Shown here one piece after another: positions 22,609-58,202 of a stretch of 64,000 bases of DNA. Source of the stretch: Antedon mediterranea (Eukaryota > Echinodermata > Crinoidea > Comatulida > Antedonidae); assembly GCF_964355755.1 (NCBI RefSeq), contig NC_092676.1, positions 1,346,288 to 1,410,287 of the forward strand, given 5' to 3'. The notes beneath the pieces are model-generated. The model was not told the DNA's origin, did no database searches, and was given only the letters and a program-made list of their open reading frames with translations. The position numbers and the translations under genes are program-made. Every line of letters begins with the position of its first letter. Position 1 is the first letter of the stretch.

Positions 22609-22611
22609 CAA

Positions 22612-31188: not shown

Positions 31189-32373
31189 TTAATCTGTCAC
31201 TTGCAAATATCCATCCTCATCCAGTTCAAATTCATCATATGCCTGGTTGGACATTCCATAGAGGGTGTTGTTGTGTTCTGTCTGTTGACGCACAGTGCTC
31301 TCCTCCTGGTTTATATTTTGTGTGCTTTGAGACTGCATTTGTTCGGAAGTTGTAAGTGGAGATCTCCTCCTTATACATCTGTACAACTCAATAAGAAATA
31401 AAATAAGAAAAGCAGAAAAAATACATGCAATTGCTACGATGAAGTGTTCTTCTCTTATCCAGTATATGTTTGAATCGGATTCGATATCATATTCAACTGT
31501 GGATCTGGCTTCTTTGGTAGTAATTGATGTGTCTGAAATCACTGTGCTTGGTGTATCAGTTGTTGTTGTGCTACCTTGGGAGGATGTATCTGGAGTTGTA
31601 ATTGGTGTGCTTGGAAACATTGTAGTTGGTGGTGTATTCCTAATAGAAGATATTTCAGTGGCACCAGTTGTTGTTGCTTCTGGTGATGTTGTAGAAGGCA
31701 TCTCAATTATAGAACATGATTTTGATATGCTTATCATTCCAGATAGACTAACATCACATGTAAGACCATAAGGCGCAATATCAGCTGGATTGTATGTGTA
31801 ATATAATGTACATACATTAGATTTTAAGCAGTTTGTTGTGGTTAGAGTGTTTCCGTTACTTCTCAACATCAATGTTTCGATATCGTCTGGAGGCATGTTG
31901 TATGAACATGATGCAATAGAACTAGTATCATTAATGTGTAAACTTGTGCATTTAGGTAATGACTGATAAATGTTCAAAGTAACTGTATTTATTATGCTAT
32001 TAATACTAAAAAATATTAACCTGCATTCATATGTTGAATTAAGATGCTTCCAGATATTAATATCATCAGGAATCTTGACCAAAAGACTATAGTCTGCACC
32101 TTCACCAGGGATTGAGTAATAACTTGACTGTAAACCAAGTCGACTTTCATCTATCATCTTTTCAGTACTGATGTAATCACTATGGACAACCCACCTTACA
32201 ACAGTTCCATCATTCATATGATTATGAGTACAGGGAAGAGATACATTCTGTCCAGGTGTGACCGTAATGACTTCTCCAAATACAAACAAAGAATGTTTAT
32301 CCACCAAGAGAATACTCCACAACAAAAAGATATATCTGCCCATTTCCAAACTGCTCAATGAAAATGTAAACAT
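31189..32373 (-). CDS. Receptor G: V-like Ig receptor, tail type 1
   Basis: 394 residues; MGRYIFLL (ATG at 32343) is a likelier start than the ATG at 32373, because paralogues begin there with MARY. After the signal peptide comes a V-like domain (VTPGQNVSLPC, VVRWVV, DYSLLVKIPDDINIW, NSTYECR). A second Ig-like domain follows (KCTSL, ASCSYN, NCLKSNVCTL, LTCDVS, SCSI). Its usual Trp is replaced: TLMLRSNG here, LIWRSNG in J, K and M to O. A Thr/Ser/Pro stalk of ~80 residues leads to the membrane segment (about 309-332, FIVAIACIFSAFLILFLIEL). The tail is short and ends with LYGMSNQAYDEFELDEDGYL; YLQV is a YxxV site. It is likely a surface recognition receptor with unknown ligand. Confidence 0.85.
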   Translation of the reverse strand: MFTFSLSSLEMGRYIFLLWSILLVDKHSLFVFGEVITVTPGQNVSLPCTHNHMNDGTVVRWVVHSDYISTEKMIDESRLGLQSSYYSIPGEGADYSLLVKIPDDINIWKHLNSTYECRLIFFSINSIINTVTLNIYQSLPKCTSLHINDTSSIASCSYNMPPDDIETLMLRSNGNTLTTTNCLKSNVCTLYYTYNPADIAPYGLTCDVSLSGMISISKSCSIIEMPSTTSPEATTTGATEISSIRNTPPTTMFPSTPITTPDTSSQGSTTTTDTPSTVISDTSITTKEARSTVEYDIESDSNIYWIREEHFIVAIACIFSAFLILFLIELYRCIRRRSPLTTSEQMQSQSTQNINQEESTVRQQTEHNNTLYGMSNQAYDEFELDEDGYLQVTD

Positions 32374-32879
32374 TTGAATTCAGACTGCCAACTTCTCTGA
32401 CTGATTTCAGTTTTTTAAATGAGATTTTAGAATAAAAGTTGTGTCTCATTGATCCCAAAAGACAAATTCTTTACCCAATACTCAATAATTAAAAATAACC
32501 TCAAGGGGATTCCCAACAATTTGGTTCATTAATAATTCATTTTACTTTACAGTTCATTTGTAATAAATGTATAATAAAGAGTAATTGAAAAATCTTAGAT
32601 ATTTTATTTATTTAGGTTTGCTTCACCGATCAGGGCAATGAGGAAGTAACTATCACACTAAGAACCTTTAAAACATTGGGATATTCATATATTAAACAAT
32701 TCATAGAAAGTTTTTGTAATGTTATCCATCTGAGCTGTATAGATGACAAGTATGTTAATTTTAATTGGAGAACCAAAACAAACAAATCATTAAAAATGAT
32801 GTTCTCTATTGTCAAATTTTATATATTAGATAATTATCATAAACAAAATGATCTATTATATGAGTTTAAGAAATAGTTA
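32374..32879. other. Spacer between G and H with the array's shared flanks
   Basis: 32390-32470 has the 5' block shared with H to K and M (ATAAAAGT..TG..TCATTGATCCC). 32580-32870 matches the H-I and I-J spacers (AGGGCAATGAGGAAGTAA, ATGTTGATTTTAATT-like words). This is the intergenic part of the tandem duplication unit. Confidence 0.65.
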
Positions 32880-33770
32880 TTATCTTCCATTACATTGCAA
32901 AACATTCACTTCCAAATATCCATCCTCATCCAGTTTAAATTCATTTCCATCATCCTGTGTAGATGTCATGTTGGACATTCCATAGAGGTCATTGTTGTCT
33001 TCTGTTTGTTGGTGCACAATGCTCACTTGGTTTGTATTTTGTATGCTTTGAGAGTTTCTTTGTTCAGAAGTTGTAAATGGATGTCTCCTCCTTGTACATC
33101 TGTACAACTCAATAAGAAACAAAATAAGAAATGCAGAAGAAATACATGCAATTGCTGTGATGAAGTGTTGTTCTCTTCTTATCCAATATTTGTTTGAATC
33201 GGACTCAAGATCATTCTCTACTGTGGATCTGGCTTCATTGGTTGTAATAGGTGTTTTAGGAAACTCTGTGCTTGGTGTAATACCTTTAACATCAGTTGCT
33301 GTTGTTGTGATAGAATGTACTCCAGATGTGCTGCCTTGGAAATGTGTTGTAATTTGTGCAGACAATGTACTTTCTTGTGCAATTTGCAAAGTAACTGTAC
33401 TTAATACACTGTAACCACCACTCATAGATGTTAACCTGCATTCATATGTTACATTAATATATTTCCAAATATTAATATCATTAGGAATTATGATAAAAAG
33501 ACTATAGTCTGCACCTTCACCAGGGATTACGTAATATTCAGTAAGTAAGTAAAGTACATTTTCATGTAGTTCTTTTTCAGTACTGATATAATCATTATAG
33601 GCAAACCATCTAACATTTCCATCATTCATGTTTCCATTATTACAAGGAAGAGATATATTCTGTCCAGGTGTGCCTGTAATAGTTATCGTTTCTCCAAATA
33701 CAAACAAAGAATGTTTATCCCTCAAGCACACCAATAGAATACTCCACAACAAGATGGTATATCTGGCCAT
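32880..33770 (-). CDS. Receptor H: single V-like Ig receptor, tail type 1
   Basis: 296 residues from the ATG at 33770 (MARYTILLW signal peptide). The V-like domain (about 28-140) has the family words TPGQNISLPC, VRWFAYNDYIS, DYSLFIIIPNDINIW and NVTYECR. The second Ig-like domain is absent: after LSTVTLQIAQ the chain goes straight into a short Thr/Ser stalk. Membrane segment about 200-223 (FITAIACISSAFLILFLIEL). The tail has DLYGMSNMT and ends EFKLDEDGYLEV plus NVLQCNGR. Near-identity of tail and stalk to I and J suggests recent duplication or conversion. The one-domain form could change ligand or dimer geometry. Confidence 0.85.
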   Translation of the reverse strand: MARYTILLWSILLVCLRDKHSLFVFGETITITGTPGQNISLPCNNGNMNDGNVRWFAYNDYISTEKELHENVLYLLTEYYVIPGEGADYSLFIIIPNDINIWKYINVTYECRLTSMSGGYSVLSTVTLQIAQESTLSAQITTHFQGSTSGVHSITTTATDVKGITPSTEFPKTPITTNEARSTVENDLESDSNKYWIRREQHFITAIACISSAFLILFLIELYRCTRRRHPFTTSEQRNSQSIQNTNQVSIVHQQTEDNNDLYGMSNMTSTQDDGNEFKLDEDGYLEVNVLQCNGR

Positions 33771-33776
33771 TTCCAA

Positions 33777-34211
33777 AGTTTAACTTCTCAAATTAATATC
33801 GACATTTGAATATTCATGGCTTCATATGGCTGTTCTTTCTGACTGTGGTATTCCTGCTTAGAATCAGATTTTATAATAAAAGTAATGCCTCATTGATCCC
33901 AATGTATAAATATTGTGTATTGTAAAGTCTTTGAGTTTTTATTTATTTAGTTTCACTTCACAGATCAGGGCAATGAGGAAGTAAATATTACACTGTTAAA
34001 CATTGGGAAATTAATAAGTATACAAAGTCACAAAAGTTATTGTAATTTTATCTGTATAGGTGGTAATTATGTTGATTTTAATTTGAAAGCCAAAACAAAC
34101 ACACCATTAAAATGTATGTTCTATAAACTGTATAATTAACATTAGATAATTATTAAAAACAAATTAATGTATCGGCAATGATATCAATGAGTTTAAGAAA
34201 TAAATACTATC
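33777..34211. promoter_or_regulatory. Shared 5' flank of receptor H and H-I spacer
   Basis: 33790-33905 is the conserved 5' block seen before G to K and M: an AATATTCAT-type word near the start codon, GAATCAGATTTTATAATAAAA, then TCATTGATCCCA. On the minus strand it reads TTTTATTATAAAATC about 80-100 bp before the ATG and may hold the core promoter. 33906-34211 is the duplicated spacer that also occurs at 40872-41168. Confidence 0.5.
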
Positions 34212-34969
34212 TTCAATTATGGATAGATGACAAATTTCGTTTTTGTAAAAGCACAAGTTAACGGAGTACTTACTCGAACGTTTCAATCTCTATCAGAGAT
34301 CCTTCTCAACTGACTGCGGAGTGTTAATGCAGCTTGGTCATTCTTGACGTCATCTGTTGATGACGTCGTACGCCTCCGGTTGTAGGTTGGAGGTTGTGCG
34401 GGGCTCGGCCAGGTGATGTGTCTATCAAATCATTGTACAAATGCGAGAGTTCGTGGGCTCCAGTGTCCCGGTTCATGGTCTTCTCCTTATTTCTCCTTAT
34501 ATGTAATGATTCTCTAATCTGTTTGTCTTTGCGTTTAGGCTCTTTGGTTAAGATGGTAGCCTCCCAGTTTGGTACATGATTGTGTTTTATGACATGTTCT
34601 GTGATGGCAGATTTGTGTATGATCGAAGATGTGGATGTTCTGGAGGCCCTAGTCATTACTCCCCCCGTGTTTGTTGTAACATCTTTTTTGTGATCATTAA
34701 TTCGTGTTTGTAATGCCCTCCCTGTTTCCCCAATGTAAACTTGTGGACAGTAACCTCCAACCTACAACCGGAGGCGTACAACGTCATCAACAGATAACGT
34801 CAAGAATGACCAAGCTGCATTAACACTCCGCAGTCAGTTGAGAAGGATCTCTGATAGAGATCGAAACGTTCGAGTAAGTACTCCGTTAACTTGTGCTTTT
34901 ACAAAAACGAAATTTGTCATCTATACAAAATCGAAGCTAAATAAAATTCTTTCAAGATTCAATTATGGA
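34212..34969 (-). mobile_element. Penelope-like retroelement fragment with 12-bp target duplication
   Basis: The insertion (34224-34957) is flanked by the 12-bp direct repeat TTCAATTATGGA (34212-34223 and 34958-34969). The uninterrupted site is present once at the end of receptor J (41169-41181). Inverted end segments (about 34224-34396 and 34756-34923) contain CTCTGATAGAGATCGAAACG and GTAAGTACTCCGTTAACTTG, the kind of terminal repeat seen in Penelope-like elements. The coding part between them is on the minus strand. The reverse transcriptase is missing. It sits just past the stop codon of pseudogene I. Confidence 0.85.
34324..34755 (-). pseudogene. GIY-YIG endonuclease domain of the Penelope-like element (fragment)
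   Basis: Reading the minus strand from about 34755 gives GYCPQVYIGETGRALQTRIN, the GIY-YIG core seen in Penelope-like elements. KSAITEHVIKHNHVPNWEAT, LHIRRNKEKTMNRDTGAHEL and SHLYNDLI follow, matching the usual C-terminal order. An open frame covers 34656-34324; the GIY-YIG motif lies just upstream. This domain normally nicks target DNA. The copy is a fragment and cannot act alone. Confidence 0.75.
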
Positions 34970-36026
34970 ATTGGCAAAACAGTAACTTCCAAATATCCAT
35001 CCTTATCCAGTTTAAATTCATTTCCATCATCCTGTGTAGATGTCATGTTGGACATTCCATAGAGGTCATTGTTGTCTTCTGTTTGTTGGTGCACAATGCT
35101 CACTTGGTTTGTATTTTGTATGCTTTGAGAGTTTCTTTGTTCAGAAGTTGTAAATGGATGTCTCATCCTTGTACATCTGTACAACTCAATAAGAAATAAA
35201 ATAAGAACAGCAGAAGAAATACATGCAATTGCTATGATGAAGTGTTCTCTTCTTATCCAATATTTGCTTGAATCAGATTCAAGATCATTTTCTATTGTTC
35301 TAGCTTTGTTGGTTGTAATAGGTGTGTTTGAAAACACTGTGCTTGGTGTTACAGGAGATGAGTTTAAATTTTCTGCTGTTGTGATTGAATGTGCTCCAGA
35401 TGTTCTTTCTTGGAAATATGTTTTTGTAATTGGTGAGCTTGGAGACATTGTTCTTCCTTGGAAAGACTGGTCCATTTCTGTTCCTTCTGGTGATGTTGTA
35501 AAAGGCATCTCATTTGTATAAAATGATTTTGATGTGCTTATTGTTCCAGATAGACTAACAACACATATGAGACCATTTTGCGCAAAGTCAGCTGGGTTGT
35601 ATGTGTAATATAATGTACATACATCAGATGATAAGCAGTCTATTGTGGTTAGATTCATTCCATTGCTTATCCTCATCAATGATTCAATATCTGAAGGAAT
35701 GTTGTATGAACATGATGCGATAGAACTAATATCATTAATGTGTAAACTTGTGCATTTAGGTAATGACTGATAAATGTGCAAAGTAACTGTACTTAATACA
35801 CTGTAACCACTCATTGATTGTAACCTGCATTCATATTCATATTAAGATATTTCCAGATATTAATATCATCAGGAATCTTGATAAAAAGACTATAGTCTGC
35901 ACCTTCACCAGGGATTGCATAATATCTTGCCAATAAGCCAACTGTGCTTTCATTTATTATCCTTCCAGTACTGATGTAAACTGAATGGCTAAACCACCTT
36001 ACAACGTTTCCATCATTCATGTTATT
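34963..36026 (-). pseudogene. Receptor I, 3' part: V-like Ig receptor disrupted by a transposon
   Basis: It encodes the second half of the V-like domain (36020 to about 35830), the second Ig-like domain, stalk, membrane segment and a type 1 tail ending DGYLEVTVLPIP. The 5' part of the same gene lies at 39756-39890, beyond a 3.7-kb palindromic element. A one-base deletion near 35840 (TTCATATTCATATTAAG here, TTCATATGTTACATTAAG in J) also shifts the frame inside the V-like domain. The second domain lacks the usual Trp (SLMRISNG). The last ~270 bases are almost identical to receptor J. The gene is dead as read, but its 3' half is otherwise well preserved, so inactivation is recent. Confidence 0.9.
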
Positions 36027-36697
36027 TAGACTAGGCTATGAATGAGGTAGGTGCCACCCGGAGAGGTAGAAATTCTCATATAACTTTTCTAGACCAGTTT
36101 TTTCTGGGGAATCCAAATATATTGGGTAAACGGGCTGTAACCTGAGAACTTTCGCGTGAGGGCGCTTTTTTCAAAATGGCTGCCAGTTACAGTAGACTAT
36201 GATATCTTGGCAACCACTGGTCATAGAGAGTTGATTTTGGTGTCAAATTGTTTGGAATGTACATGTTCCTATTTGATGTAATAGAAAATTTTGTCAGAAA
36301 ATGGCCGGAAATACCTCTATTGACCTTTGACCCAATATCTAACAGATATCATATCTCCGTAACTACTGGACACAGAAAGTTGTAATTGGTGTCAAACTCT
36401 CCAGAATATAGATGTTTATATTCAAACTAATAGAACATTATCTGTAAAAATGACCGGAAATAACGTTACTGACCTTTGACCCAAAATGCAAGACATTTCT
36501 CCTATCTGATCACGCTAATCCTGTCAATTAATTCATTTTGTGCCAATTGGAGGTTGACATTCTCATATTATTTTCTTGACCAGTTTTTCATGTGCAATCC
36601 GAGTAATATGAGATAAATAAGCCATAACAAGGCCAAGAATTTAATTCTTTTACTACATACATGCTTCCCTTTAGTGTTTCAGTCTGTATGTCGTGTA

Positions 36698-37618
36698 TTA
36701 ATCTTCAAGATCGCTCACATCACTGCAATCTGAAAAGTCTTCATATTCATTATGTGTAAACAGTTCCTGGACATCAGTGGGCATCACTGTCTCAATCCAT
36801 TTAGGCTCCATTTGTTCGTTCCATCCATTGTGTGTACTGTTGTTGACAAAATAATTGACGTCTGCTGATTGCCATTCTTTAGTAATGAAGTTTGCTCTAA
36901 GTATATGAAACTCAAGGGTCTGCTGACATAGTGGCAGTAATGATATATCTGTAATCTTGTTGTGTCTGGAAAACTTTCTGTTGAAGATATCATATCTTGC
37001 TTGATTTACACTTTTCCCCTTCACTCCATACAATGGTGAAACATACTCTTCAAGTTCCTCATACAACTCTTTTGATGGAACATCTGACACTCCAAGGTTG
37101 CAGAATGTGTCTGCGCTTTTGTTAAATCAATGTCACTCAATTTCAGTACATTTCGGTATTTCCCAGTGTTTGTATCAATAATTACCCTCTGCCCATCATC
37201 TATGAAATGAGATAGTGAAATGACTGGAATGTCAAAGTCTCCAGAATGGGAACGAATTATTGCTACGCCTTGATTGTTATTTGTTAAAGCATGCTTTGCA
37301 TGCAGGATGACTTTCATGTCGGCTTCTTCTTGGCTACTATTAAGCTCTGGAACCAATACAACATCTCAGTTAGTAACGTAGATGCATTCTTTGTACGATG
37401 AAAAGTAGATAACATCACTCCTCATATCTGTTAGAATGCTTTCTTTCTTTGACACTAGTACACAGCGAATAAGCTCAATCAATCTGGTCTTGTTTTTGCC
37501 GTTGGCAAGGAAATTGTTAAAATCACGGGGCAACTTTGATATTTTTGAGCTTACAATTACTTTTGGTGCAATACCGCGTCTGTTTCTCGCAGTGCTCGAC
37601 CAGGATCCATAACATCAT
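36698..37618 (-). pseudogene. Left-arm copy of transposon protein (FEN1/PIN-like candidate), 3' half
   Basis: Minus-strand frames 37356-37021 and 37090-36698 encode SSQEEADMKVILHAKHALTN, IIRSHSGDFDIPVISL and then a C-terminal part ending DVSDLED. EEAD followed by DxDIxV resembles the acidic metal-binding motifs of FEN1/XPG-like (PIN-fold) nucleases. Similar proteins are, to my knowledge, common repeat-associated genes in invertebrate and fish genomes. A deletion or frameshift near 37090 removes the segment present in the right arm at about 38540-38690 (HAFTGNDYNSAFFRKGKRTC). Confidence 0.65.
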
Positions 37619-37689
37619 CTCACTTTATTTTCAAATAGTGGGAAGAAACTCGAAATCAAGGAAAATGGGAAAGTAAGAGTAATATAAGC

Positions 37690-39080
37690 TAATCGGGATG
37701 TTTTAGGAAAGCTTCTTGCCACCTCAACAAAGCATGGTAGAATAATTGACTTTAAGAAAGCCTTTGAGTATCCACTTACCCCTGTCCCGCTAAGCCTTGC
37801 TAATACAGATGGGACAAGACGAACAACTCAGAAAAGTGTCCTAATGGAAATTCTCATCGAAATTTCAACAGATGTTATAGATCCTGGTCGGGCACTGCCA
37901 GCAAAGGCTACTGTCATTGCCTATGTTGTTGACTTGATGGCATTAATCAGAACATTTACATCTTACCCTGATGCGTACGAGGATCTTGTAGCAAAGGTTT
38001 TCAACAGCATCCCTAAAGGATACAAGCGAGTTGATATTGTTACCGATGCATACCTGCCAAAAAGCATTAAGTCTGTTGAGAGAAACATACGCGGTATTGC
38101 ACCAAAAGTAATTGTAAGCTCAACAATATCAAAGTTGGCCCGTGATTTCAACAATTTCCTTGCCAACGGCGAGAACAAGACCAGATTGATTGAGCTTATT
38201 CGCTGTGTACTAGTGTCAAAGAAAGAAAGCATTCTAACAGATATGAGGAGTGATGTTATCTACTTTTCATCGTACAAAGAATACATCTACGTTACTAACT
38301 GAGATGTTGTATTGGTTCCGGAGCTTAATAGTAGCCGGAAGAAGAAGCCTACACGAAAGTCATCCTGCATGCAAAGCATGCTTTAACAAATAACAATCAA
38401 GGCGTAGCAATAATTCGTTCCCATTCTGGAGACATTGATATTCCAGTCATTGCACTATCTCATTTCATAGATGATGGGCAGAGGGTAATTATTGATACAA
38501 ACACTGGGAAATACCGAAAGGTACTGAAATTGAGTGGCATTGATTTAACAAAAGCGCAGAAATCATCCCTTATTGGATTCCATGCTTTCACAGGTAACGA
38601 TTATAACTCCGCTTTCTTTCGGAAAGGAAAACGTACCTGCTGGAAGCTTCTGGAATCAAAAGCAAAATTTGTTGACACATTCTGCAACCTTGGAGTGTCA
38701 GATCAAAAGAGTTGTATGAGGAATTTTAAGAGTATGTTTCACTATTGTATGGAGTGAAGGGGAAAAGTGTAAATCAAGCAAGATATGATATCTTCAACAG
38801 AAAGTTTTCCAGACACAACAAGATTACAGATATATAATTACTGCCACTATGTCAGCAGACCCTTGAGTTTCATATACTTAGAGCACACTTCATTACTAAA
38901 GAATGGCAATCAGCAGATGTCAATGATTTTGTCAACAACAGTACACACAATGGATGGAACGAACAAATGGAGCCTAAATGGATTGAGACAGTGATTCTCA
39001 CTGATGTCCAGGAACTGTTTACACATAATGAATATGAAGACTTTTCAGATTGCAGTGATGTGAGCGATCTTGAAGATTAA
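37690..39080 (+). pseudogene. Right-arm copy of transposon protein (FEN1/PIN-like candidate)
   Basis: The plus strand reads KAFEYPLTPVPLSLANTDGT, IAYVVDLMALIRT, VDIVTDAYLPKSIKSVERN and NFLANGENKTRLIELI up to a stop at 38302. It continues after it with HAKHALTNNNQG, IIRSHSGDIDIPVIAL, HAFTGNDYNSAFFRKGKRTC and a C-terminus ending DVSDLED. Several breaks are visible: the stop at 38300, and two extra bases near 38340 that destroy the EEAD motif kept in the left arm. A frame change also occurs near 38760. The left and right arms therefore carry independent mutations. The nuclease assignment rests on spacing of acidic residues and is inference. Confidence 0.65.
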
Positions 39081-39755
39081 TACACGACATACAGTCTGAA
39101 ACACTAAAGGGAAGCATGTACAGTATATAGTAAAAGAATTAAATTATTGGCCTTGTTATGGCTTATTTATCTCATATATTCGGATTGCACATGAAAAACT
39201 GGTCCAGAAAATAATATGAGAATGTCAACCTCCAATTGGCACAAAATGAATTAATTGACAAAATTAACGTGATCAGATGGGAGAAATTTCTTGCATTTTG
39301 GGTCAAAGGTCAGTAACGTTATTTCCGGTCATTTTTACAGATAATGTTCTATTAGTCTGAATATAAACATCTATATTCTGGAGAGTTTGACACCAATTAC
39401 AACTTTCTGTGTCGAGTAGTTACGGAGATATGATATCTGTTAGATATTGGGTCAAAGGTCAATAGAGGTATTTCCGGCCATTTTCTGACAAAATGTTCTA
39501 TTACATCAAATAGGAACATGTACATTCCGAATAATTTGACACCAAAATCACCTCTCTATGACCAGTGGTTGCCAAGATATCATAGTCTATTGTAACTGGC
39601 AGCCATTTTGAAAAAAGCGCCCTCACGCGAAAGTTCTCAGGTTACAGCTCGTTTACCCAATATATTTGGATTCCCCAGAAAAAACTGGTCTAGAAAAGTC
39701 ATATGAGAATTTCTACCTCTCCGGGTGGCACCTACCTCATTCATAGCCTAGTCTA

Positions 39756-39890
39756 ATTATTACAAGGAAAAGATACATTCTGTCCAGGTGTGGCTGTAAT
39801 ACTCATCGTTTCTCCAAATACAAATAACGATTGTTTATCCATATAGCACACCAATAGAATAATCCGCAACAAGATGGTATATCTGGCCAT
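39756..39890 (-). pseudogene. Receptor I, 5' part: signal peptide and start of V-like domain
   Basis: From the ATG at 39890 the minus strand encodes MARYTILLRIILLVCYMDKQ, then SLFVFGE and TPGQNVSFPCNN. It then runs into the transposon end, where a stop follows. The continuation of the domain is at 36020. Confidence 0.9.
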
Positions 39891-39893
39891 TTC

Positions 39894-40134
39894 TAAAGTT
39901 TAACTGCTAAACTTAATGTCAACATGAATGACTGTTCTTTCTTACTATGATATTCCTGCTTGGAATCAGATTTTATAATAAAAGTAATGCCTTATTGATC
40001 CCAATGTATAAATATTGTGTACCTGTCCCCTTAACTCGTCCATGCACATCATAACCCCAGTCTGAATAAACAATTACCTGGTTATTTCCTACAACTTAAT
40101 ACAATGTATAATAAAGAGTAAATAGACACGTATC
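39894..40134. promoter_or_regulatory. Shared 5' flank of receptor I
   Basis: Contains the conserved block GGAATCAGATTTTATAATAAAA then TTATTGATCCCAATGTATAA, as upstream of G, H, J, K and M. The rest is the CATCATAACCCCAGT spacer also seen before J, K and M. Confidence 0.5.
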
Positions 40135-41168: not shown

Positions 41169-42320
41169 TTATGGAATTGGCAAAACAGTAACTTCCAAAT
41201 ATCCATCCTTATCCAGTTTAAATTCATTTCCATCATCCTGTGTAGATGTCATGTTGGACATTCCATAGAGGTCATTGTTGTCTTCTGTTTGTTGGTGCAC
41301 AATGCTCACTTGGTTTGTATTTTGTATGCTTTGAGAGTTTCTTTGTTCAGAAGTTGTAAATGGATGTCTCATCCTTGTACATCTGTACAACTCAATAAGA
41401 AATAAAATAAGAAAAGCAGAAGAAATACATGCAATTGCTATGATGAAGTGTTGTTCTCTTTTTATCCAATATTTATTTGGATCCGAGTCAAGATCATTCT
41501 CCACTGTGGATCTGGCTTCATTGGTTGTAATCGATGTGCTTGGTTTAATACCTGTAGTAGCAGTTCCTTGAAAATATGCATCTGGGGTTGTAATTGGTGG
41601 AGACACTGTACTTCCTTGGAAAGAATGGTCCATTTCTGTTCCTTCTGGTGATGTTGGAATCTCATTTATAGAACATGATTCTGATACGCTTATCATTCCA
41701 GATTCACTAACATTACAAGTAAGTCCATGTGGAACAACATCTGTTGGGTTGTATGTGTAATATAATGTACATACATTAGATGATAAGCAGTTTATTGTTG
41801 TTAGAGTCCTTCCATTGCTTCTCCATATCAATGATTCCATATCTGAAGGGTTGTTGTAGGAACATGATGCAACAGAAGTGGTATCATTAATTTGTAAACT
41901 TGTACATTTAGGTAATGACTGATAAATGTGCAAAGTAAATGTACTTAATACACTGTAGTAACCACCACTCATTGATGTTAACCTGCATTCATATGTTACA
42001 TTAAGATATTTCCAGATATTAATATCATCAGGAATCATGATAAAAAGACTATAGTCTGCACCTTCACCAGGGATTGCAAAATGAGTTGCATGTAAGCCAA
42101 GTGTGCTTTCATTTATCATCTTTTCAGTACTGATGTAAGCACTCTGAACAAACCACCTTACAACAATTCCATCATTCATGTGATCATAATTACAAGGAAG
42201 AGATACATTCTGTCCAGGTGTGCCTGTAATAGTTATCGTTTCTCCAAATACAAATAATGAGTGTTTATCCCATAAGCACACCAATAGAATACTCCACAAC
42301 AAGATTGTATATCTGGCCAT
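41169..42320 (-). CDS. Receptor J: two-domain V-like Ig receptor, tail type 1
   Basis: 383 residues from the ATG at 42320 (MARYTILLW signal peptide). The V-like domain (about 28-140) has TPGQNVSLPC, VVRWFVQSAYIS, EGADYSLFIMIPDDINIW and NVTYECR. The second Ig-like domain (about 145-225) has KCTSL, ASCSYN, LIWRSNG, NCLSSNVCTL, LTCNVS and SCSI. A ~60-residue Ser/Thr stalk follows. The membrane segment is about 290-313, the tail ~65 residues with DLYGMSNMTS and a final DKDGYLEV (YxxV) plus TVLPIP. The intact structure makes it the reference for G, H and I. It is a probable surface receptor; the signalling partner is unknown. Confidence 0.9.
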   Translation of the reverse strand: MARYTILLWSILLVCLWDKHSLFVFGETITITGTPGQNVSLPCNYDHMNDGIVVRWFVQSAYISTEKMINESTLGLHATHFAIPGEGADYSLFIMIPDDINIWKYLNVTYECRLTSMSGGYYSVLSTFTLHIYQSLPKCTSLQINDTTSVASCSYNNPSDMESLIWRSNGRTLTTINCLSSNVCTLYYTYNPTDVVPHGLTCNVSESGMISVSESCSINEIPTSPEGTEMDHSFQGSTVSPPITTPDAYFQGTATTGIKPSTSITTNEARSTVENDLDSDPNKYWIKREQHFIIAIACISSAFLILFLIELYRCTRMRHPFTTSEQRNSQSIQNTNQVSIVHQQTEDNNDLYGMSNMTSTQDDGNEFKLDKDGYLEVTVLPIP

Positions 42321-42326
42321 TTTCAA

Positions 42327-42614: not shown

Positions 42615-43949
42615 TTATATTGAATCATCAAGTGATTGATAGGCCTCATTTTCATGGTATACAATGCCATCATTTGTTCCATCTTCATTGCTATTCTCTG
42701 ATGCATCCACCTTCAATGCACTTTGTTCAAGAACTTGTTCTCCTGTTTTATCTGCTCTATTTGTACAATCTCCATCAACAATAACATTCTTAATTTCCTT
42801 CTTTTGCTCATCAGCTGATTCATAAATCTGATTTTCCTCCATGACACTCTCCTTACTATTTTCCAGCATCTCCTGATTTTCTCCTTTTGTTGTTGGATTT
42901 ACTTTCAAGTCAACCTCAACATATTCATGATCATCTGGTGGTGCTGATTTAAATGAAAGGTTTTGTTTATATTCAGAGCGTCTTCTTACATAATAAATGA
43001 TGAAAATAATCAGAAGTAGAATGATGACAAAAGCTACTGACATGATGGCTATTAGATATATTGGGACACTGTCATTAGGTTCTTCTGGTTTATTTACAGT
43101 TAACATTTGTTTGTTTCTTGTTGTACTATCATTAGATTCTGTGGAAGTGGTTGTGATAGTACTTTCTAATGTTGAGAAGTATTTTGTCAAAGTTGTTTTT
43201 TCAATAAAAGGTTCAACAGATGCGCTTCCTTCAAAAGGCGAGTCTGTGTCTGTTCCTTCTGTTGATCCAGGGATCTCATTTATAGAACATGATTTTGTTG
43301 TGCTTATCGTTCCAGATTCACTAACATTACAAGTGAGACCATGTGGTACAATGTCAGCTGGGTTGTATGTGTAATTTAATGTACATACATTAGATGATGA
43401 ACAACTTTCTGTGGTTAGAGTGTTTCCATTGCTTCTCCATATCAATGATTCCATATCTGAAGTGTTGTTGTAGGAACAGGATGCGATAGAACTAGAATCA
43501 TTAATTTGTAAACTTGTGCATTTAGGTAATGACTTATAAATATGTAAAGTAACTGTATTTAATTTGCTATAACTACCTGTAATAAATGTAAATCCGCATT
43601 CATATGTTACATTAAGATATTTCCAGATATTAATATCATCAGGAATCGTGATAAAAAGACTATAGTCTGCACCTTCACCAGAGATTGCATAATAACTTGT
43701 CAGAAAGCCAAGCACAGTACTATCTAGTATTCTGTCACTACTGATGTAATCACCATGGGCATGCCACCTAACACTTCCATCCATCAGTTGATCATTAGTA
43801 GTACAAGGAAGAGATACATTCTGTCCAGGTGTGGCTGTAATAACTTCTCCAAATAAAAATAATGATTGTTTATCCATCAAGCACATTAATAGAATAATCC
43901 GCAACAAGATGGTATATCTGGCCATTTCCAACTTCTTTAATTTCGTCAT
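42615..43949 (-). CDS. Receptor K: two-domain V-like Ig receptor, tail type 2, C-terminus frameshifted
   Basis: 444 residues from the ATG at 43949; the in-frame ATG at 43925 (MARYTILLR) is the start used by paralogues. V-like domain, second Ig-like domain, Thr/Ser stalk (FIEKTTLTKYFSTLEST), membrane segment about 298-322, then tail type 2. The tail has DDHEYVEVDLKV (YxxV), EENQIYESAD and IVYHENEAYQSL, with YxN and YxxL sites. It stops at DDSI because one base is missing near 42634 compared with L. That removes about 26 residues, including the ITIM-like end found in L, N and O. Its second domain and stalk are almost identical to M. It may still be functional without the inhibitory-type motif. 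Confidence 0.85.
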   Translation of the reverse strand: MTKLKKLEMARYTILLRIILLMCLMDKQSLFLFGEVITATPGQNVSLPCTTNDQLMDGSVRWHAHGDYISSDRILDSTVLGFLTSYYAISGEGADYSLFITIPDDINIWKYLNVTYECGFTFITGSYSKLNTVTLHIYKSLPKCTSLQINDSSSIASCSYNNTSDMESLIWRSNGNTLTTESCSSSNVCTLNYTYNPADIVPHGLTCNVSESGTISTTKSCSINEIPGSTEGTDTDSPFEGSASVEPFIEKTTLTKYFSTLESTITTTSTESNDSTTRNKQMLTVNKPEEPNDSVPIYLIAIMSVAFVIILLLIIFIIYYVRRRSEYKQNLSFKSAPPDDHEYVEVDLKVNPTTKGENQEMLENSKESVMEENQIYESADEQKKEIKNVIVDGDCTNRADKTGEQVLEQSALKVDASENSNEDGTNDGIVYHENEAYQSLDDSI

Positions 43950-46321: not shown

Positions 46322-46436
46322 TTTAAAAAAAAAATTAACATGTGGGAATTTGAATAATTTTCTTTCCTTTCTGTCCTATTTTTTCTTCTAGATTTTTCTT
46401 GGTCCTTGCATTTGCCACTGTTCTTGCATTGTCATT

Positions 46437-47125: not shown

Positions 47126-47545
47126 GGGAATTTTCCTAATATCCATCCTCATCCAGTTTAAATTCATTGCTATCATCGTGTGTAGATGTCATGTTGGACA
47201 TTCCATAGCGGTCAGTGTTTGTTGACGCACAGTGTTCATGTTGTGTAGATTCTGTTTACATCAAGGGCTTTTTCATACATTATAAATGATGAAAATAACC
47301 AGAAATAGAATTATGACAGATGAAAAGATACCAAGACAATAGCTATTAGATATATTACAATACATACTGTTTATTGACTGGTTAGAGTTAGTTTTTTTGC
47401 ATTTTCAGTTGTAATTTATTTTTTGCTGCCTTTTGTTCTATCATCGTATTCTGTTGGAGTGGTCATGTACTTTGTAATGTTGATATTAATAATGTTTTTA
47501 TACTTTGCCTGCATATTCTGCAATCCTTTTAATTGAAATTAATTA
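47126..47545 (-). pseudogene. Chimeric receptor relic 1
   Basis: The minus strand has, at 47140-47225, the C-terminal tail of type 1 receptors (NMTSTHDDSNEFKLDEDGY-like) including the CATGTTGGACATTCCATAG coding block. It is followed upstream by TACATTATAAATGATGAAAA and CAGAAATAGAATTATGACAG, which match the membrane-segment codons of tail type 2 genes. Stops and frameshifts are frequent. A near-identical relic lies at 54590-54965. Confidence 0.7.
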
Positions 47546-48076: not shown

Positions 48077-49534
48077 CTATTCACGTTCTAACACTTCATA
48101 GTGATAATAAGTTGGATTTTTAGTTCCTTTTTTGTCTGATTCCTTCAGATCTAACTTATCATTATTTACATTGATGTCTTCAAGAGATTCATAGGCTTCA
48201 TTTTCATGGTACACAATGCCATCATTTGTTCCACCTTCATTTCTGTTCTCTGATGCACTCTTCTTCAATGCCTCACTTTGTTCAAGAACTTGTTCTCCTG
48301 TTTTATCTGCTCTATTTGTATAATCTCCATCAACAATAACATTCTTAATTTCCTTCTTTTGCTCAGTAATCTGTTTCCCATTTATGTCAGCTGATTCATA
48401 AATCCAGTTTTCCTCCATGACACTCTCCACATTATTTTTCATCATCTCCTGATTTTCTCCTTTTGTTGTTGGATTTACTTTCAAGTCAACTTCAACATAT
48501 TCATGATCATCTGGTGGTGCTGATTTGAATGATGGGTTTTGTTTATTTTGAGACTGAGAGTGTCTTCGTACATAATAAATGATGAAAATAATCAGAAGTA
48601 GAATGATGACAAAAGCTACTGCTGACATGATGGCTATTAGATATATTGGGACACTGTCATTAGGTTCTTCTGGTTTATGTACAGTTAACATTTGTTTGTT
48701 TCTTGTTGTACTATCATTAGATTCTGTGGAAGTGGTTGTGATAGTACTTTCTAATGTTGAGAAGTATTTTGTCAAAGTTGTTTTTTCAATAAAAGGTTCA
48801 ACAGATGCGCTTCCTTCAAAAGGCGAGTCTGTGTCTGTTCCTTCTGTTGATCCAGGGATCTCATTTATAGAACATGATTTTGTTGTGCTTATCGTTCCAG
48901 ATTCACTAACATTACAAGTGAGACCATGTGGTACAATGTCAGCTGGGTTGTATGTGTAATTTAATGTACATACATTAGATGATGAACAACTTTCTGTGGT
49001 TAGAGTCCTTCCATTGCTTCTCCATATCAATGATTCCATATCTGAAGTGTTGTTGTAGGAACAGGATGCGATAGAACTAGTATCATTAATTTGTAAACTT
49101 GTGCATTTAGGTAATGACTTATAAATATGTAAAGTAACTGTATTTAATTTGCTATAACTACCTGTAATAGATGTTAATCCGCATTCATATGTTTCATTAA
49201 AATATTTCCAGATATTAATATCATCAGGAATCGTGATAAAAAGACTATAGTCTGCACCTTCACCAGGGATTGCATAATAACTTGTCTGGAAACCAAGCAT
49301 AGTACTATCTAGTATTCTTTCACTACTGATGTAATCACCATGGGCATGCCACCTAACACTTCCATCCATCAGTTGATCATTAGTAGTACAAGGAAGAGAT
49401 ACATTCTGTCCAGGTGTGGCTGTAATAACTTCTCCAAATAAAAATAATGATTGTTTATCCATCAAGCACACCAATAGAATAATCCGCAACAAGATGGTAT
49501 ATCTTGCCATTTCCAACTTCTTTAATGTCGACAT
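48077..49534 (-). CDS. Receptor M: two-domain V-like Ig receptor, tail type 2
   Basis: 485 residues from the ATG at 49534; MARYTILLR begins nine codons later. The layout is V-like domain, second Ig-like domain with LIWRSNG, a Thr/Ser stalk almost identical to K, membrane segment about 297-322, then tail type 2. The tail has HEYVEVDLKV, EENWIYESAD, VYHENEAYESL and the C-terminal YHYEVLERE. Here Tyr sits at the -2 position of the last motif (YHYEVL). This departs from the strict ITIM consensus that L, N and O satisfy. Differences from K are concentrated in the V-like domain. The frame is complete to the shared C-terminus. Confidence 0.9.
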   Translation of the reverse strand: MSTLKKLEMARYTILLRIILLVCLMDKQSLFLFGEVITATPGQNVSLPCTTNDQLMDGSVRWHAHGDYISSERILDSTMLGFQTSYYAIPGEGADYSLFITIPDDINIWKYFNETYECGLTSITGSYSKLNTVTLHIYKSLPKCTSLQINDTSSIASCSYNNTSDMESLIWRSNGRTLTTESCSSSNVCTLNYTYNPADIVPHGLTCNVSESGTISTTKSCSINEIPGSTEGTDTDSPFEGSASVEPFIEKTTLTKYFSTLESTITTTSTESNDSTTRNKQMLTVHKPEEPNDSVPIYLIAIMSAVAFVIILLLIIFIIYYVRRHSQSQNKQNPSFKSAPPDDHEYVEVDLKVNPTTKGENQEMMKNNVESVMEENWIYESADINGKQITEQKKEIKNVIVDGDYTNRADKTGEQVLEQSEALKKSASENRNEGGTNDGIVYHENEAYESLEDINVNNDKLDLKESDKKGTKNPTYYHYEVLERE

Positions 49535-51569: not shown

Positions 51570-52913
51570 TTATTCTCGTTCTAAAACTTCATAGTGAACA
51601 TAAGCTGGGATTTTAGTTCCTTTTTCGTCAGATTTCTTCTGATCTAATTTAGCATTATTTATATTGATGTCATCAAGTGATTCATAGGCTTCATTTTCAT
51701 GGTACACAATGCCATCATTTGTTCCATCTTCATTGCTCTTCTCTGATGCACCCTTCTTCAATGCACTTTGTTCAAGAACTTGTTCTCTTGTTTTATCTGC
51801 TCTCTTTGTGAAGTCTCCATCACCAATAACACACCTAATTTCTTTCTTTTGCTTATTTGCAACATTTTGTTTCCCATTCATGTCAGCTGATTGATAAATC
51901 TGATTTTCCTCTATGACACTCTCCTTACTATTTTTCATCATCTCATTATTTTCTCCTTTTGTTGTAGGATTTACTTTCAAGTCAACCTCAACGTATTCAT
52001 GATCATCTGGTGGTGCTGATTTGAATGATGGGTTTTGTTTATATTGAGGGCGTCTTCGTGCGTAATAAATTATGAAAATAATCAGAAATAGAATGATGAT
52101 GAAAGCTATCGACATAATGACTATTATATGTATAGAAATATTGTCACCTGATTGATTAGAGTCTTCGGTTGATTTTATTTGTTTGATGTTTGTGAATTCT
52201 GTGCTTAGAGAAGATGTTTCAATGTTTGATGTGGCTGCTGGCAAGTAAGTCTCTAGTCCTTCTGGTGATGTTGTAAAAGACATCTCATTTATAGAACATG
52301 ATTTTGTTGTACTTATCATTCCAGACTTACTAACAGCACATGTGAGACCATGTGGCACAATGTCAGTTTGGTTGTATGTGTAGTTTAATGTACATACATT
52401 AGATTTTAAGCAGTCTATTGTGATTAGAGTGTTTCCATTACTTCGCCATATCAATGATTCCATATTTGAAGTGGTGTTGTAGGAACATGATGCGATAGAA
52501 GTTGTAGCATTAATGTGTACACTTGTGCATACAGGTAATGGCTGATAAATGTGTAAAGTAACTGTATTTAATATGCTATAATCATCACTGCATTCATAGT
52601 CTCCATCAATGTATGACCAGATATTGATATCATCAGGAATCTTGATAAAAAGACTATAGTTGGAACCTTTACCAGGGATTGTGTAATAAGGTGACAGTAA
52701 GCCAAGTGTGCTTTCATTTATCATCCTTTCAGCACTTAGGTAACCTGAATGGCTAAACCACCTTACAACATTTCCATCATTCATGTTATCCTTATTACAA
52801 GGAAGAGATACATTCTGTCCAGGTGTTACTGTAATGGTTGTACTTATTTCTCCAAATACAAATAAAGAATGTTTATCCATCAAGTACACTAAGAGAACCA
52901 TACACCAAAACAT
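51570..52913 (-). CDS. Receptor N: two-domain V-like Ig receptor, tail type 2 with ITIM-like end
   Basis: 447 residues from the ATG at 52913 (MFWCMVLLVYLMDKHSLFV signal peptide). The V-like domain is shortened before its end: IDGDYECSDDYSILNTVTL lacks the RLTSMSG stretch of relatives. The second domain has VCTSV, ASCSYN, LIWRSNG, DCLKSNVCTL, LTCAVS and SCSI. Short stalk. The membrane segment (about 263-288) is IHIIVIMSIAFIIILFLIIF. The tail has HEYVEV, EENQIYQSAD and VYHENEAYESL, and ends VHYEVLERE, a VxYxxL ITIM-type motif. A putative spliced 5' exon lies upstream at about 54136. Confidence 0.9.
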   Translation of the reverse strand: MFWCMVLLVYLMDKHSLFVFGEISTTITVTPGQNVSLPCNKDNMNDGNVVRWFSHSGYLSAERMINESTLGLLSPYYTIPGKGSNYSLFIKIPDDINIWSYIDGDYECSDDYSILNTVTLHIYQPLPVCTSVHINATTSIASCSYNTTSNMESLIWRSNGNTLITIDCLKSNVCTLNYTYNQTDIVPHGLTCAVSKSGMISTTKSCSINEMSFTTSPEGLETYLPAATSNIETSSLSTEFTNIKQIKSTEDSNQSGDNISIHIIVIMSIAFIIILFLIIFIIYYARRRPQYKQNPSFKSAPPDDHEYVEVDLKVNPTTKGENNEMMKNSKESVIEENQIYQSADMNGKQNVANKQKKEIRCVIGDGDFTKRADKTREQVLEQSALKKGASEKSNEDGTNDGIVYHENEAYESLDDININNAKLDQKKSDEKGTKIPAYVHYEVLERE

Positions 52914-53014
52914 TTTCAAAGATTGCCAGCTCACAAAATCTTCTCTTTCTTGTTGTCCTAGACTTTGTAGATTATTCTTGGTCTTTACATAGCCACTGTC
53001 CCTGCTTAGTCAAT

Positions 53015-54590: not shown

Positions 54591-54965
54591 TTCCTAATAT
54601 CCATCCTCATCCAGTTTAAATTCATTGCTATCATCGTGTGTAGATGTCATGTTGGACATTCCATAGCGGTCAGTGTTGTTGTTGTTGTCTTCTGTTTGTT
54701 GACGCACAGTGTTCATGTTGTGTAGATTCTGTTTACATCAAGGGCTTTTTTATACATGATAAATGATGAAAATAACCAGAAATAGAATTATGACAGAAAT
54801 GAGAAAATATCAAGACAATAGCTATACAATTCTGTTTATTGACTGGTTTAGAGAATAGGTTTTTTGCATTTTCAGTTGTAATTTATTTGTTGCTGCCTTT
54901 TGTTCTATCATCGTATTCTGTTGGAGTGGTCATGATACTTTGTAATGTTGATATTAATAATGTTG
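54591..54965 (-). pseudogene. Chimeric receptor relic 2
   Basis: Same composition as 47126-47545: a type 1 tail end joined to type 2 membrane-segment codons, with the same broken frame and only small differences (it retains GTTGTTGTTGTCTTCTGTTT, lost in relic 1). The two relics and their flanks belong to one duplicated block. Confidence 0.7.
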
Positions 54966-55619
54966 TTATACTTTTGCCTGCATATTATGCAGTTCTTTTA
55001 ATTGAAGTTAATTATTTAGTTCATTTGAATAGAAGAATGTACTTTACTTTGCAGATTTTCTGTTGAGCACAAAATTAGTTTCCAATCAAAAATGGTAAAA
55101 GAATTATGAAAGTTTAGAACACAGTTTCACGTTACAGCTCAATGAGGAAGTAAACATCATTGTGCAATACAGATTTTTATTTTCAAATTCAAGTAAAGTT
55201 TCACTAATTTAAATTTTGTTTCTATTGTAAGACCATTAAAGCAGTAAAGATGGGCCCAAAAGTGGTTTCCTTCCTATAACGTTGGTTATATGTCAGATTT
55301 TAATGAGTGACTTATAATTTCTCCTTGTCTTAGGATAATTAAAAAAAGGTTATTTAATTTCTGCAAAAGCATTTTTGATTAATTTAAGCTCCGTCTGGTC
55401 TAAAATTGTTAATAGTTCAGTAAAGTTTTATTATTCTAGTTCTATTAGCACTTAAAAAGTTATTTTATTCTCCGATTCTAACAAGTAAAAGTTTAAAGTT
55501 TTGTTATTCTCATTTCATTTCATAAACATTTATTTATATTAATTAATTCTGGTTCTGTTAACACTTGCAAAGTTATTTTATTCTCATTCTAACAATTCAA
55601 GTAAAAGTTTCAAGTTTTG
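54966..55619. other. 3' flank of receptor O
   Basis: Matches 47560-48060; about two to three copies of the ~75-bp 3' repeat lie at 55430-55619. Confidence 0.6.
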
Positions 55620-57242
55620 CTATTCTCGTTCCAACACTTCATAATGAACATAAGCTGGAATTTTAGTTCCTTTTTTGCCCGATTCCTTCTGATCTAACTT
55701 AGCATTATTTATATTGATGTCATTAAGAGATTCATATGCTTCATTTTCATGGTATACAATGATATCATTTGTTCCATCTTCATTGCTATTCTCTGATGCA
55801 CCCTTCTTCTTAATTTCCATTTTTTGCTTCTTTGCAACATTACCATCATCATTAATCTGTTTCCCATTCATGTCAGCTGATTGATAAATCTGATTTTCCT
55901 CCATAACACTCTCTTTACTATTTTCCAGTATCTCTTGATTTTCACCGTTCTTTTGCTTATTTGCATCATTTTGTTTCCCATTCATGTCAGCTGATTCATA
56001 AATCCAGTTTTCTTCCATGACACTCTCCTTACTATTTTCTAGTATCTCTTGATTTTTTCCTTTTGTTGTAGAATTTACTTTAAAGTCAACCTCAACGTAT
56101 TCGTGATCATCTTGTGGTGCTGATTTGAATGAAGGATTTTGTTTATATTGAGAGCATCTTCTTACAAAATAAATGATGAAAATAATCAGAAGTAGAATGA
56201 TGACAAAGGCTACTGACATGATGGCTATTGGATGTATTGGAAAATCTGGATTTTCAGTTGAATTTATTTGTTCATTTGTTGCAAATTCTGTGGAAGTTGT
56301 AGGCATGATACTGGTTTGATTTACTGGTAACTCTGTAATTGTACCTTTGTCAATGTACTCTGTAGTAGAGAAAGATGTTTCAACTTTAGTCGATTGGTCT
56401 GGATTTTCTGTTGTGGATACGGTTTCTTTGGTTGTAATTGGTGAGGTTTGAAACATTGTAGTTGGTGGTGTATTTCTTATAGAAGATGTTTCAGAGTTTG
56501 AAGTGGTTTCAGTAAAAGATACACTAGTTGTGCTTCTTGGGAAAGACCGGTCCATTTTTGTTCCACCTGTTGATGTTGCAAAAGACATCTCATTTATAGA
56601 ACATAATTTTGATACGCTTATCATTCCAGATACATTAACAGCACATGTGATACCATGTGGTACAATGTCAGCTGGGTTGTATGTGTAAGTTAATGTACAT
56701 ACATTAGATGATAAGCAGTTTATTGTGTTTAGATTCATTCCATTACTTCGCCATATCAGTGATTCCATTTCTGAAGGAATGTTGTAGGAACATGATGCGA
56801 TAGAAGTGGTATCATTAATGTGTAAACTTGTGCATTTTGGTAATGACTGATAAATGTTCAAAGTAACTGTACTTAATATGCTATAATCACCACTCATAGG
56901 TGTTAACCTGCATTCATAGGTTTCTTCTAAAAATTCCCAGACATCAATGTTATCAGGAACCTTGATAAAAAGACTATAGTCTGCATCTTCACCACCAGGA
57001 ATTGCAAAATAAGGTGCCTGTAAGCCAAGTGAGCTTTCATCTATCATCTTGTCAGCACTGATGTAAACTTCACGGGTAAACCACCTTACAACATTTGCAT
57101 CATTCATGTTACCATTAGTACAAGGTAGAGATACATTCTGTCCAGATGTGGCTGTAATGGTTATCGTTTCTCCAAGCACAAACAAATTTGTATCCATCAA
57201 GTTCACAAAAAGAACCATACACAAGAAACTTGTTTTTCTCAT
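55620..57242 (-). CDS. Receptor O: largest two-domain V-like Ig receptor, long stalk, ITIM-like end
   Basis: 540 residues from the ATG at 57242 (MRKTSFLCMVLFVNLMDTNL signal peptide). V-like domain (TSGQNVSLPC, VVRWFTREVYIS, ADYSLFIKVPDNIDVW, EETYECR) and second domain (KCTSL, ASCSYN, LIWRSNG, NCLSSNVCTL, ITCAVN, LCSI). The stalk is longer than in the others (~120 residues). It combines the RNTPPTTMF segment of G with other repeats. Membrane segment about 338-363. The tail has HEYVEV and two EILENSKESVMEEN modules (IYESAD, IYQSAD). It lacks the VIVDGD...EQVLEQS part of L and M. It retains VYHENEAYESL and ends VHYEVLERE (ITIM-type). First exon predicted near 59477. Confidence 0.9.
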   Translation of the reverse strand: MRKTSFLCMVLFVNLMDTNLFVLGETITITATSGQNVSLPCTNGNMNDANVVRWFTREVYISADKMIDESSLGLQAPYFAIPGGEDADYSLFIKVPDNIDVWEFLEETYECRLTPMSGDYSILSTVTLNIYQSLPKCTSLHINDTTSIASCSYNIPSEMESLIWRSNGMNLNTINCLSSNVCTLTYTYNPADIVPHGITCAVNVSGMISVSKLCSINEMSFATSTGGTKMDRSFPRSTTSVSFTETTSNSETSSIRNTPPTTMFQTSPITTKETVSTTENPDQSTKVETSFSTTEYIDKGTITELPVNQTSIMPTTSTEFATNEQINSTENPDFPIHPIAIMSVAFVIILLLIIFIIYFVRRCSQYKQNPSFKSAPQDDHEYVEVDFKVNSTTKGKNQEILENSKESVMEENWIYESADMNGKQNDANKQKNGENQEILENSKESVMEENQIYQSADMNGKQINDDGNVAKKQKMEIKKKGASENSNEDGTNDIIVYHENEAYESLNDININNAKLDQKESGKKGTKIPAYVHYEVLERE

Positions 57243-58202
57243 TTTCAAAGATTGCCAGTTCACTTAAAATAAAAAATATTTGTCTTCTCTTTCTGTTGTC
57301 CTAGACTTCTCTATCTCTTCGTAGATTATTCTTGGCCACTGTTCCTGCATAGTCAATCCTGTAGAAGAAAATGGTTAAGATTTGTTAGCAAGCATTCTTC
57401 AGCAAATTTGACTCCTACTTCACTGAAAATATTTTTAACTTGTCCATACACAGCATATCTCTCACACATGAATTGTTTATTTAATAATTATATTATTATG
57501 CCTGTCAATTTAACCTTTTAAAAAACAAGAGGATGCTTGATAATTTTAAATGCTGTATAGTAAAACAAATTGTATATGGTGCACTTAAGTAATATAGTAG
57601 ACAAATTATTTTTCTCAAGAGAAATATTTCAGGACTGCAAATAATGTTTGAGGTGACTTCCTTTCTGTTTAATCTATTCAACAGGCAGTTAAGTTACTGT
57701 TTGTATGCTTACTAGTAAAATAAATGATATGATTATGTAATGTCAGCAAAACTGAAAATGTAAGAATAAAAAGATATGGTCACATTCAAAGTACAGTGAA
57801 CAGCACACACAGTCATAATTTACATTGTAAAAGTTTTGTACAGGAACCTATTTCAAGTTTGGTCTTTGCTAATTATTTACTTATGTTATTTCTCTATGTT
57901 TATTCACTTTGAAATATTCAAATTTACTTCCTTGTACAGTTTTACCTTAGAGTTGAAGGTGCAGAAAATGAGCATCCTCATTCTAATACCCCCAAATCAT
58001 TGTTAGATATGATTTAAAAATTTAAAAAACAAATTAATATTTGAAAAAGGTATGTGGTCTTTTATAACTTTACTATGGGAAACTAGAACACTTTTTTTTG
58101 CAGAATTCTAATGCCCCAAAAGACAGAATACATTGGTATCTCTCAGGAAAAGTTTAAATTTCAGAGAAAAGAAGAAAAATAAACAATGATACAGTACAAG
58201 TC

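Follow-up and report, generated by a model that had tools for sequence, protein, structure and literature searches.

A tandem cluster of single-frame immunoglobulin receptor genes in the crinoid Antedon mediterranea, considered within a genome-wide set

We analysed a stretch of 64,000 nucleotides from the crinoid Antedon mediterranea (the window, C7:1346288-1410287, on contig C7, NC_092676.1, of a genome of 354 Mb in 18 contigs). Nine mutually similar loci, named G to O, lie on its minus strand between positions 31189 and 57263, and their reading frames predict single-pass membrane proteins with immunoglobulin (Ig) domains. The loci and the fragments lying among them are listed here by window position.

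31189..32373, minus strand: gene G; signal peptide, V-like domain, second Cys-rich Ig domain, Thr/Ser stalk, membrane pass, short type-1 tail; 394 amino acids.
32880..33776, minus strand: gene H; V-like domain joined directly to the stalk (second domain absent), then membrane pass and type-1 tail; 298 amino acids from TTG, with ATG as codon 3.
34963..35814, minus strand: main part of locus I, a pseudogene; a single frame runs from the second domain through the stalk and membrane pass to the type-1 tail.
35811..36035, minus strand: rest of the V domain of locus I, in a different frame from the main part.
36023..39759, unstranded: fold-back insertion in locus I; a long inverted repeat inside the V domain.
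39756..39911, minus strand: 5' piece of locus I; end of the signal peptide and start of the V domain, separated by the insertion.
41169..42326, minus strand: gene J; V domain, second domain, stalk, membrane pass, type-1 tail; 385 amino acids, with ATG as codon 3.
42615..43949, minus strand: gene K; V domain, second domain, stalk, membrane pass, type-2 tail ending early; 444 amino acids.
44978..46321, minus strand: gene L; V domain joined directly to the stalk (second domain absent), then membrane pass and type-2 tail; 447 amino acids.
47133..47219, minus strand: type-1 tail fragment.
48077..49534, minus strand: gene M; V domain, second domain, stalk, membrane pass, type-2 tail; 485 amino acids.
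51570..52934, minus strand: gene N; V domain, second domain, stalk, membrane pass, type-2 tail; 454 amino acids from GTG, with ATG as codon 8.
54591..54734, minus strand: type-1 tail fragment.
55620..57263, minus strand: gene O; V domain, second domain, long stalk, membrane pass, type-2 tail; 547 amino acids from GTG, with ATG as codon 8.

Eight of the nine loci (G, H and J to O) hold an intact single frame of 298-547 amino acids, with an ATG at codon 8 or earlier in each, in DNA with a guanine-cytosine content of about 30-38%. Their intron-free status refers to the coding frame, as introns in untranslated regions are invisible to a reading of the sequence. Six of the intact genes (G, J, K, M, N and O) encode, from the N-terminus, a signal peptide, a V-like Ig domain, a Cys-rich second domain, a Thr/Ser-rich stalk, a membrane pass and a tail; in H and L the stalk directly follows the V domain, so that the second domain is present in six of the eight intact genes. 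Two cysteines and a tryptophan are invariant in the V parts of all eight, and a single strong hydrophobic segment followed by a tail is found at all nine loci. The original prediction, made from the sequence of the window, had described nine related Ig receptors on one strand, with a V-like domain, usually a second Cys-rich Ig domain, a stalk, one membrane pass and a tyrosine tail, all coded without internal introns. The relationship, strand and extent of the loci and the general plan of the proteins stand, as does the absence of introns from the coding frame for eight of the loci. However, the second domain is missing from H and L, locus I is broken by an insertion, and the tails are of two different kinds rather than one.

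Locus I is a pseudogene. Its V domain contains an inverted-repeat element of about 3.7 kb, with outer arms (36023-36605 and 39177-39759) that are 97% complementary and main arms that are 96-98% complementary. The outer ends of this fold-back element (36023 and 39759) coincide with the break, and the element splits the locus. The second domain of locus I has also lost its last cysteine. The two type-1 tail fragments suggest that further copies have been lost from the array.

The Ig character of the ectodomains was assessed with profiles and with a predicted structure. A profile of six G-O ectodomains matches antibody light chains (best E 4.4e-4), and the Pfam family V-set or ig falls below the cut-off in five of the nine proteins, with neither listed in the other four. 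An AlphaFold2 model of the two domains, built with nine window sequences, is of modest confidence and has a mean predicted local distance difference test score (pLDDT) of 64.7, and the second domain (block means of 71-82 for residues 111-180) is better modelled than the V loops (below 50 for residues 38-60); an earlier model that included signal peptides had a pLDDT of 47 and was excluded from fold searches. The structural matches of the model are Ig proteins, namely CD2, CD48, PD-L1, CD58, VCAM-1, Neph1 and CD80, with Z scores of 8.6-9.2 and root-mean-square deviations (rmsd) of about 5-8. Two-Ig proteins align across both domains, and the best match has Z 9.2 and rmsd 6.2 over 162 residues, although a Z of about 9 barely exceeds the range of 7 to 8 given by the tool as usual for models with no clear match. 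Foldseek returned mostly antibody light chains, at template modelling scores of 0.32-0.47. The structural matches are all tied, and their ranking is uninformative on function. The predicted structure supports an Ig fold for the V-like domain and also for the second domain, for which sequence alone was indecisive; the two-Ig ectodomain of the original prediction is in agreement with this model.

The tails fall into two types that have no recognisable similarity to each other in alignment. The short type-1 tail of G, H, I and J has two conserved tyrosine sites, LYGMS and GYLxV. The long type-2 tail of K, L, M, N and O carries HEYVEV, IY(E/Q)SA and EAY(E/Q)SL, and ends in HYEVL in L, M, N and O. 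The nine tails contain 19 YxxPhi sites, compared to 10.5 in shuffled sequences, and none of 500 shuffles reached this number; these 19 sites are not independent, since the tails are paralogues. The tails of 20 proteins of the wider class described below contain 61 such sites, compared to 30.6 in shuffles (0/500 as high).

A genome search with gene M recovered the G-O cluster, one fragment on contig C4 (L018) and three distant relatives on C7, at 2.42, 2.46 and 3.75 Mb. The open frames of these relatives are 704, 452 and 342 amino acids long, two of them being intact (L015 and L016) and one split (L017, C7:3747800-3750600). L017 is a three-Ig relative of G-O in two overlapping frames, and is either a pseudogene or an assembly error. 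Three broader searches used the V-set family (150 of 790 candidates scored), the C2-set_2 family (150 of 207 scored, 131 matches) and a three-Ig receptor gene of the wider class that lies in the window near the cluster (98 matches). The latter gene and a second copy of it are as follows.

11063..12352, minus strand: three-Ig neighbour gene, a wider-class single-frame receptor; 429 amino acids; Ig_3 E 1.7e-20.
7427..8622, minus strand: frame-broken second copy of this gene.

Matches inside open frames of at least 337 amino acids numbered 48 of 150 for V-set, 67 of 131 for C2-set_2 and 95 of 98 for the neighbour gene, for which the three remaining rows are the query and its copy and were left out. 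After matches had been merged according to contig, strand, frame length and position, there were at least 161 distinct Ig-matching frames of this length besides G-O. This figure is a minimum for frames of this kind, and it is no proof that they all belong to one class. A stop lies inside the matched part in only two of them. The frames are spread over ten contigs, with 82 on C3, and some form arrays: 22 frames on the same strand at C3:11.73-11.90 Mb, 11 on the same strand at C11:5.56-5.60 Mb, and 45 on mixed strands at C3:18.57-18.91 Mb. We read 20 of the 161 frames, seven with Pfam and the others by eye (L043 and L044 being incomplete at the left owing to the choice of stretch), and in all 20 a membrane pass comes after the Ig domains. 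The majority encode three Ig domains in the order V-C2-I and a tyrosine-bearing tail; the tail is short in L022, L023 and L034. The original prediction was that an intron-poor ancestor had been amplified in tandem. This is supported, but we reject an amplification confined to this locus, given that the same design is widespread in the genome.

The V-set search also recovered sequences of another kind. The 102 V-set rows in shorter frames are mostly on C8, many of them in blocks at 0.38-1.66 Mb and 4.7-6.1 Mb. In one region (L035, C8:5122400-5130400, with matches to about C8:5140872), near-identical tandem V-set exons with frames of about 123-128 amino acids, of two alternating kinds, lie inside a 3236-base higher-order repeat.

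Several observations tie G-O to the wider class. The best-scoring relatives of the G-O V domain are the three-Ig receptors on the same contig, as L017, L015 and L016 score 45, 35 and 31 bits against a V profile, and the other 16 of 19 frames score at most 21. Four cysteines are invariant in an alignment of 15 second domains of the class. The corresponding pattern (P-x-C..C..C..C) is present in 16 of the 19 frames of L015-L034, compared to a mean of 0.15 and a maximum of 2 in 300 shuffles, in 3/3 frames that were read later and in all six intact two-domain G-O genes. It is found in none of six short-frame C2-type exons of C8 with splice-like flanks, a small control because five of these exons resemble each other. 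A property of the class, a single open frame across all domains, is seen at eight of the nine loci. However, the third, I-type Ig domain is present at none of the nine, where the stalk takes its place, and for this reason we call G-O a derivative rather than a typical member: the loci look like descendants of the V-C2-I class that have lost the third Ig domain. One frame on C9 (L044, read by eye) has a similar build, with Ig domains, a long Thr/Pro stalk, a tail and no third Ig domain, and so the G-O shape may have arisen more than once.

To understand how the array evolves, we estimated the ratio of nonsynonymous to synonymous divergence (dN/dS) by pairwise codon comparison. The ratio is 0.87 for the V domain (95% interval 0.60-1.20; eight genes), 0.53 for the second domain (0.31-0.89; six genes) and 0.40 for the long tail (0.26-0.65; five genes), where gene pairs are not independent; the long tail is clearly constrained and the V domain is not. 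A possible concentration of V divergence in the loops (dN/dS 1.00, compared to 0.72 elsewhere) was equalled or bettered by 8 of 107 shifted partitions, and we make no claim from it. Divergence is also uneven along pairs of genes. K and M differ at 2 of 123 silent sites in the V and second domains, but their tails differ at 12.5 of 72 such sites (Fisher p 1.5e-4). Conversely, the tails of I and J are identical across 74 codons, while 12.5 of 57 silent sites separate their second domains (p 1e-3), and the pair H-J has a similar pattern (p 0.04). Nucleotide similarity drops near the coding region in most of ten pairs, with N and O sharing more of the upstream flank. The uneven divergence along pairs suggests gene conversion or unequal exchange between copies of the array.

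Our preferred explanation is that G-O are cell-surface recognition receptors encoded by single-exon genes, that they probably signal via phosphotyrosine and that they derive from a class that probably arose by retrocopying; we hold this to be the probable reading as a whole. It builds directly on the frames, the Ig folds in profile and model, the membrane pass, the two tails, the lower bound on copy number, the uneven divergence and the broken copy. From these we infer how recognition and signalling might work. The V-like domain, raised on the second Ig domain and on a long and probably glycosylated stalk, would meet a ligand on another cell or on a microbe. On binding, tyrosines of the tail in YxxV or YxxL contexts would become phosphorylated, and the phosphotyrosines would then be read by SH2 proteins. 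The origin and the order of events may be pictured as follows. An early member of the class would have lost its introns, probably via copying from mRNA, and the intron-free V-C2-I class would then have spread through the genome by duplication. One local copy may have lost the third Ig domain and gained the Thr/Ser stalk in its place, and this stalked copy would have become a tandem array with two alternative tails, between whose members gene conversion moved blocks.

It is important to consider the results that weigh against this explanation. A comparison of the second-domain profiles of G-O and the class is not significant (E 0.15), and therefore the link between these domains rests on position and cysteines. 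The immunoreceptor tyrosine-based inhibitory motif (ITIM) is not enriched in the nine G-O tails, with three instances (one each in L, N and O) compared to 2.0 in shuffles (161/500 as high); the tails thus lack the ITIMs beyond chance that would be expected of ITIM-bearing inhibitory receptors. In the wider-class tails, the enrichment of this motif is mild (12, compared to 7.0; 22/500 shuffles as high). Tail profiles run against 28 sequences found no relative of tail 1 among other receptors and a single weak relative of tail 2 (E 0.0009). Gene trees do not reject ectodomains that simply follow tail type (approximately unbiased test, p 0.073, 0.087 and 0.256), and so do not demonstrate an exchange of ectodomains between tail types. 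The original prediction also held that the array is diversifying as a recognition system. The V ratio, set against that of the long tail, fits this view, but it is not significantly above 1 and does not demonstrate positive selection. Constraint is not apparent in the short tail either (pairwise ratios of 0.78-1.35 on few changes).

A separate observation concerns three class members, L019 and L020 on C7 and L030 on C2, which have similar ITIM-like sites near the end of the tail (LVYAEL, LLYADL and LKYADL).

A larger possibility, which we put forward tentatively and think may well be wrong, is that one intron-free Ig gene gave rise to a repertoire of well over 160 single-exon receptors in several arrays, renewed by gene conversion on two or more tail types. 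Sea urchins have large repertoires of Toll-like and scavenger receptors, and the crinoid genes would then represent a parallel to these, a large innate repertoire of Ig-domain recognition proteins. In Ig receptors, each domain normally has an exon of its own, and the evolution of these receptors is thereby linked to exon shuffling. A large single-exon repertoire would show a second route by which such families can expand. Single exons would also make gene conversion, tail choice and copy number readable from genomic DNA. The cluster is real, and it is more interesting as part of a genome-wide single-exon Ig set than as an isolated array.

Three other explanations deserve attention. The one that survives best, though we think it rather unlikely, is that the proteins serve adhesion or fusion instead of immunity, as KirrelL does and as nectin, Neph and SYG proteins do in sorting cells by homophilic or heterophilic contact. 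Echinoderm KirrelL lacks introns and is needed for cell fusion (PMC8903837). Solved structures matched by the class member L028 are those of CD276, SYG-2, Neurotrimin/IgLON, Kirrel-like 1 and poliovirus receptor, and the G-O model matches domains D1-D2 of Neph1 with Z 8.7 and rmsd 6.8 over 169 residues, in a tie with CD2 and PD-L1. However, a tandem array, broken and lost copies and a loosely constrained V domain are commoner in immune-type families. Improbable in our judgement is an allorecognition or self-recognition complex comparable to the Alr genes of Hydractinia; crinoids are solitary animals, which speaks against it. What speaks for it is the combination of tandem Ig genes, single-pass proteins and V-like domains, a design resembling the one reported for the 41-gene Alr family (PMC11067881, PMC11999971). 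Finally, it is highly improbable that tandem duplication has left mostly decaying copies here that serve little purpose: one locus is broken, two tail fragments are present and the ratios of the V domain and short tails are near 1, but eight long frames are intact and the upper bound on the long-tail ratio is 0.65.

Some further features were noted. The window contains four more single-frame minus-strand proteins (26495-28741, 23745-25001, 21646-22611 and 17526-18191) with a hydrophobic segment, a Thr/Ser-rich ectodomain and tails that are often long or repetitive, and no Ig domain by eye; the first has an IYESA site resembling tail 2, and the second repeats ELYCEM/QRYKNG. On the plus strand, 1667-4491 has two overlapping frames that by eye resemble the endonuclease and reverse transcriptase of a long interspersed nuclear element. 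Near-perfect long tandem repeats occupy 13986-15430 (68-base unit, 21 copies) and 18554-20608 (42-base unit, 49 copies). Elsewhere, contig C2 carries twelve Hox genes within 0.38 Mb, one of them Hox9/10-like and three Hox11/13-like by eye from known signatures, and a Dlx-like homeobox is found on C2 as well. These Hox genes speak against a mollusc or other lophotrochozoan. Hox and Dlx are reported to be separated in hemichordates (PMC11175523), so that their linkage here disfavours a hemichordate and points to an echinoderm. Crinoids have a haploid chromosome number of 11. For most echinoderms, a review puts the diploid number at 36 to 46 (PMC3308324). A search of the genome for mitochondrial COX1 gave no match.

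Among known systems, vertebrate two-Ig receptors (CD2/CD48, B7 and nectin) share the fold of a V plus C2 ectodomain, and vertebrate paired receptors (KIR and SIRP) likewise place one ectodomain family on two kinds of tail. However, vertebrate genes of this kind have one exon per domain. In addition, by eye, the short-tailed G-O form has no basic residue inside the membrane pass, and so it does not have the usual design of an activating partner. In Hydractinia, Alr proteins have tyrosine tails. Going by description, the likeness to G-O is that Alr genes are clustered, encode single-pass Ig proteins whose folds are supported by AlphaFold, and include pseudogenes (PMC11067881). The difference is one of phylum, and also that the crinoid genes are single-frame and that the wider class extends across ten contigs.

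We found no report of a large expansion of single-exon Ig receptors in an echinoderm in the open-licence literature. Intronless Ig genes as such are not new in this phylum: kirrelL, which encodes an Ig transmembrane protein, has no introns in all echinoderms examined, a set that includes a feather star, and an origin by retrotransposition has been proposed (PMC8903837). KirrelL, as described, resembles G-O in its intron-free coding region (in eight of the nine G-O loci), its Ig ectodomain and its transmembrane nature. It differs in that it is treated in that paper as one gene with a set developmental role, whereas here there is an array and 161 other long Ig frames. A large single-exon repertoire also makes it possible to examine directly whether echinoderm kirrelL, itself intronless, belongs to a much larger receptor class or founded it.

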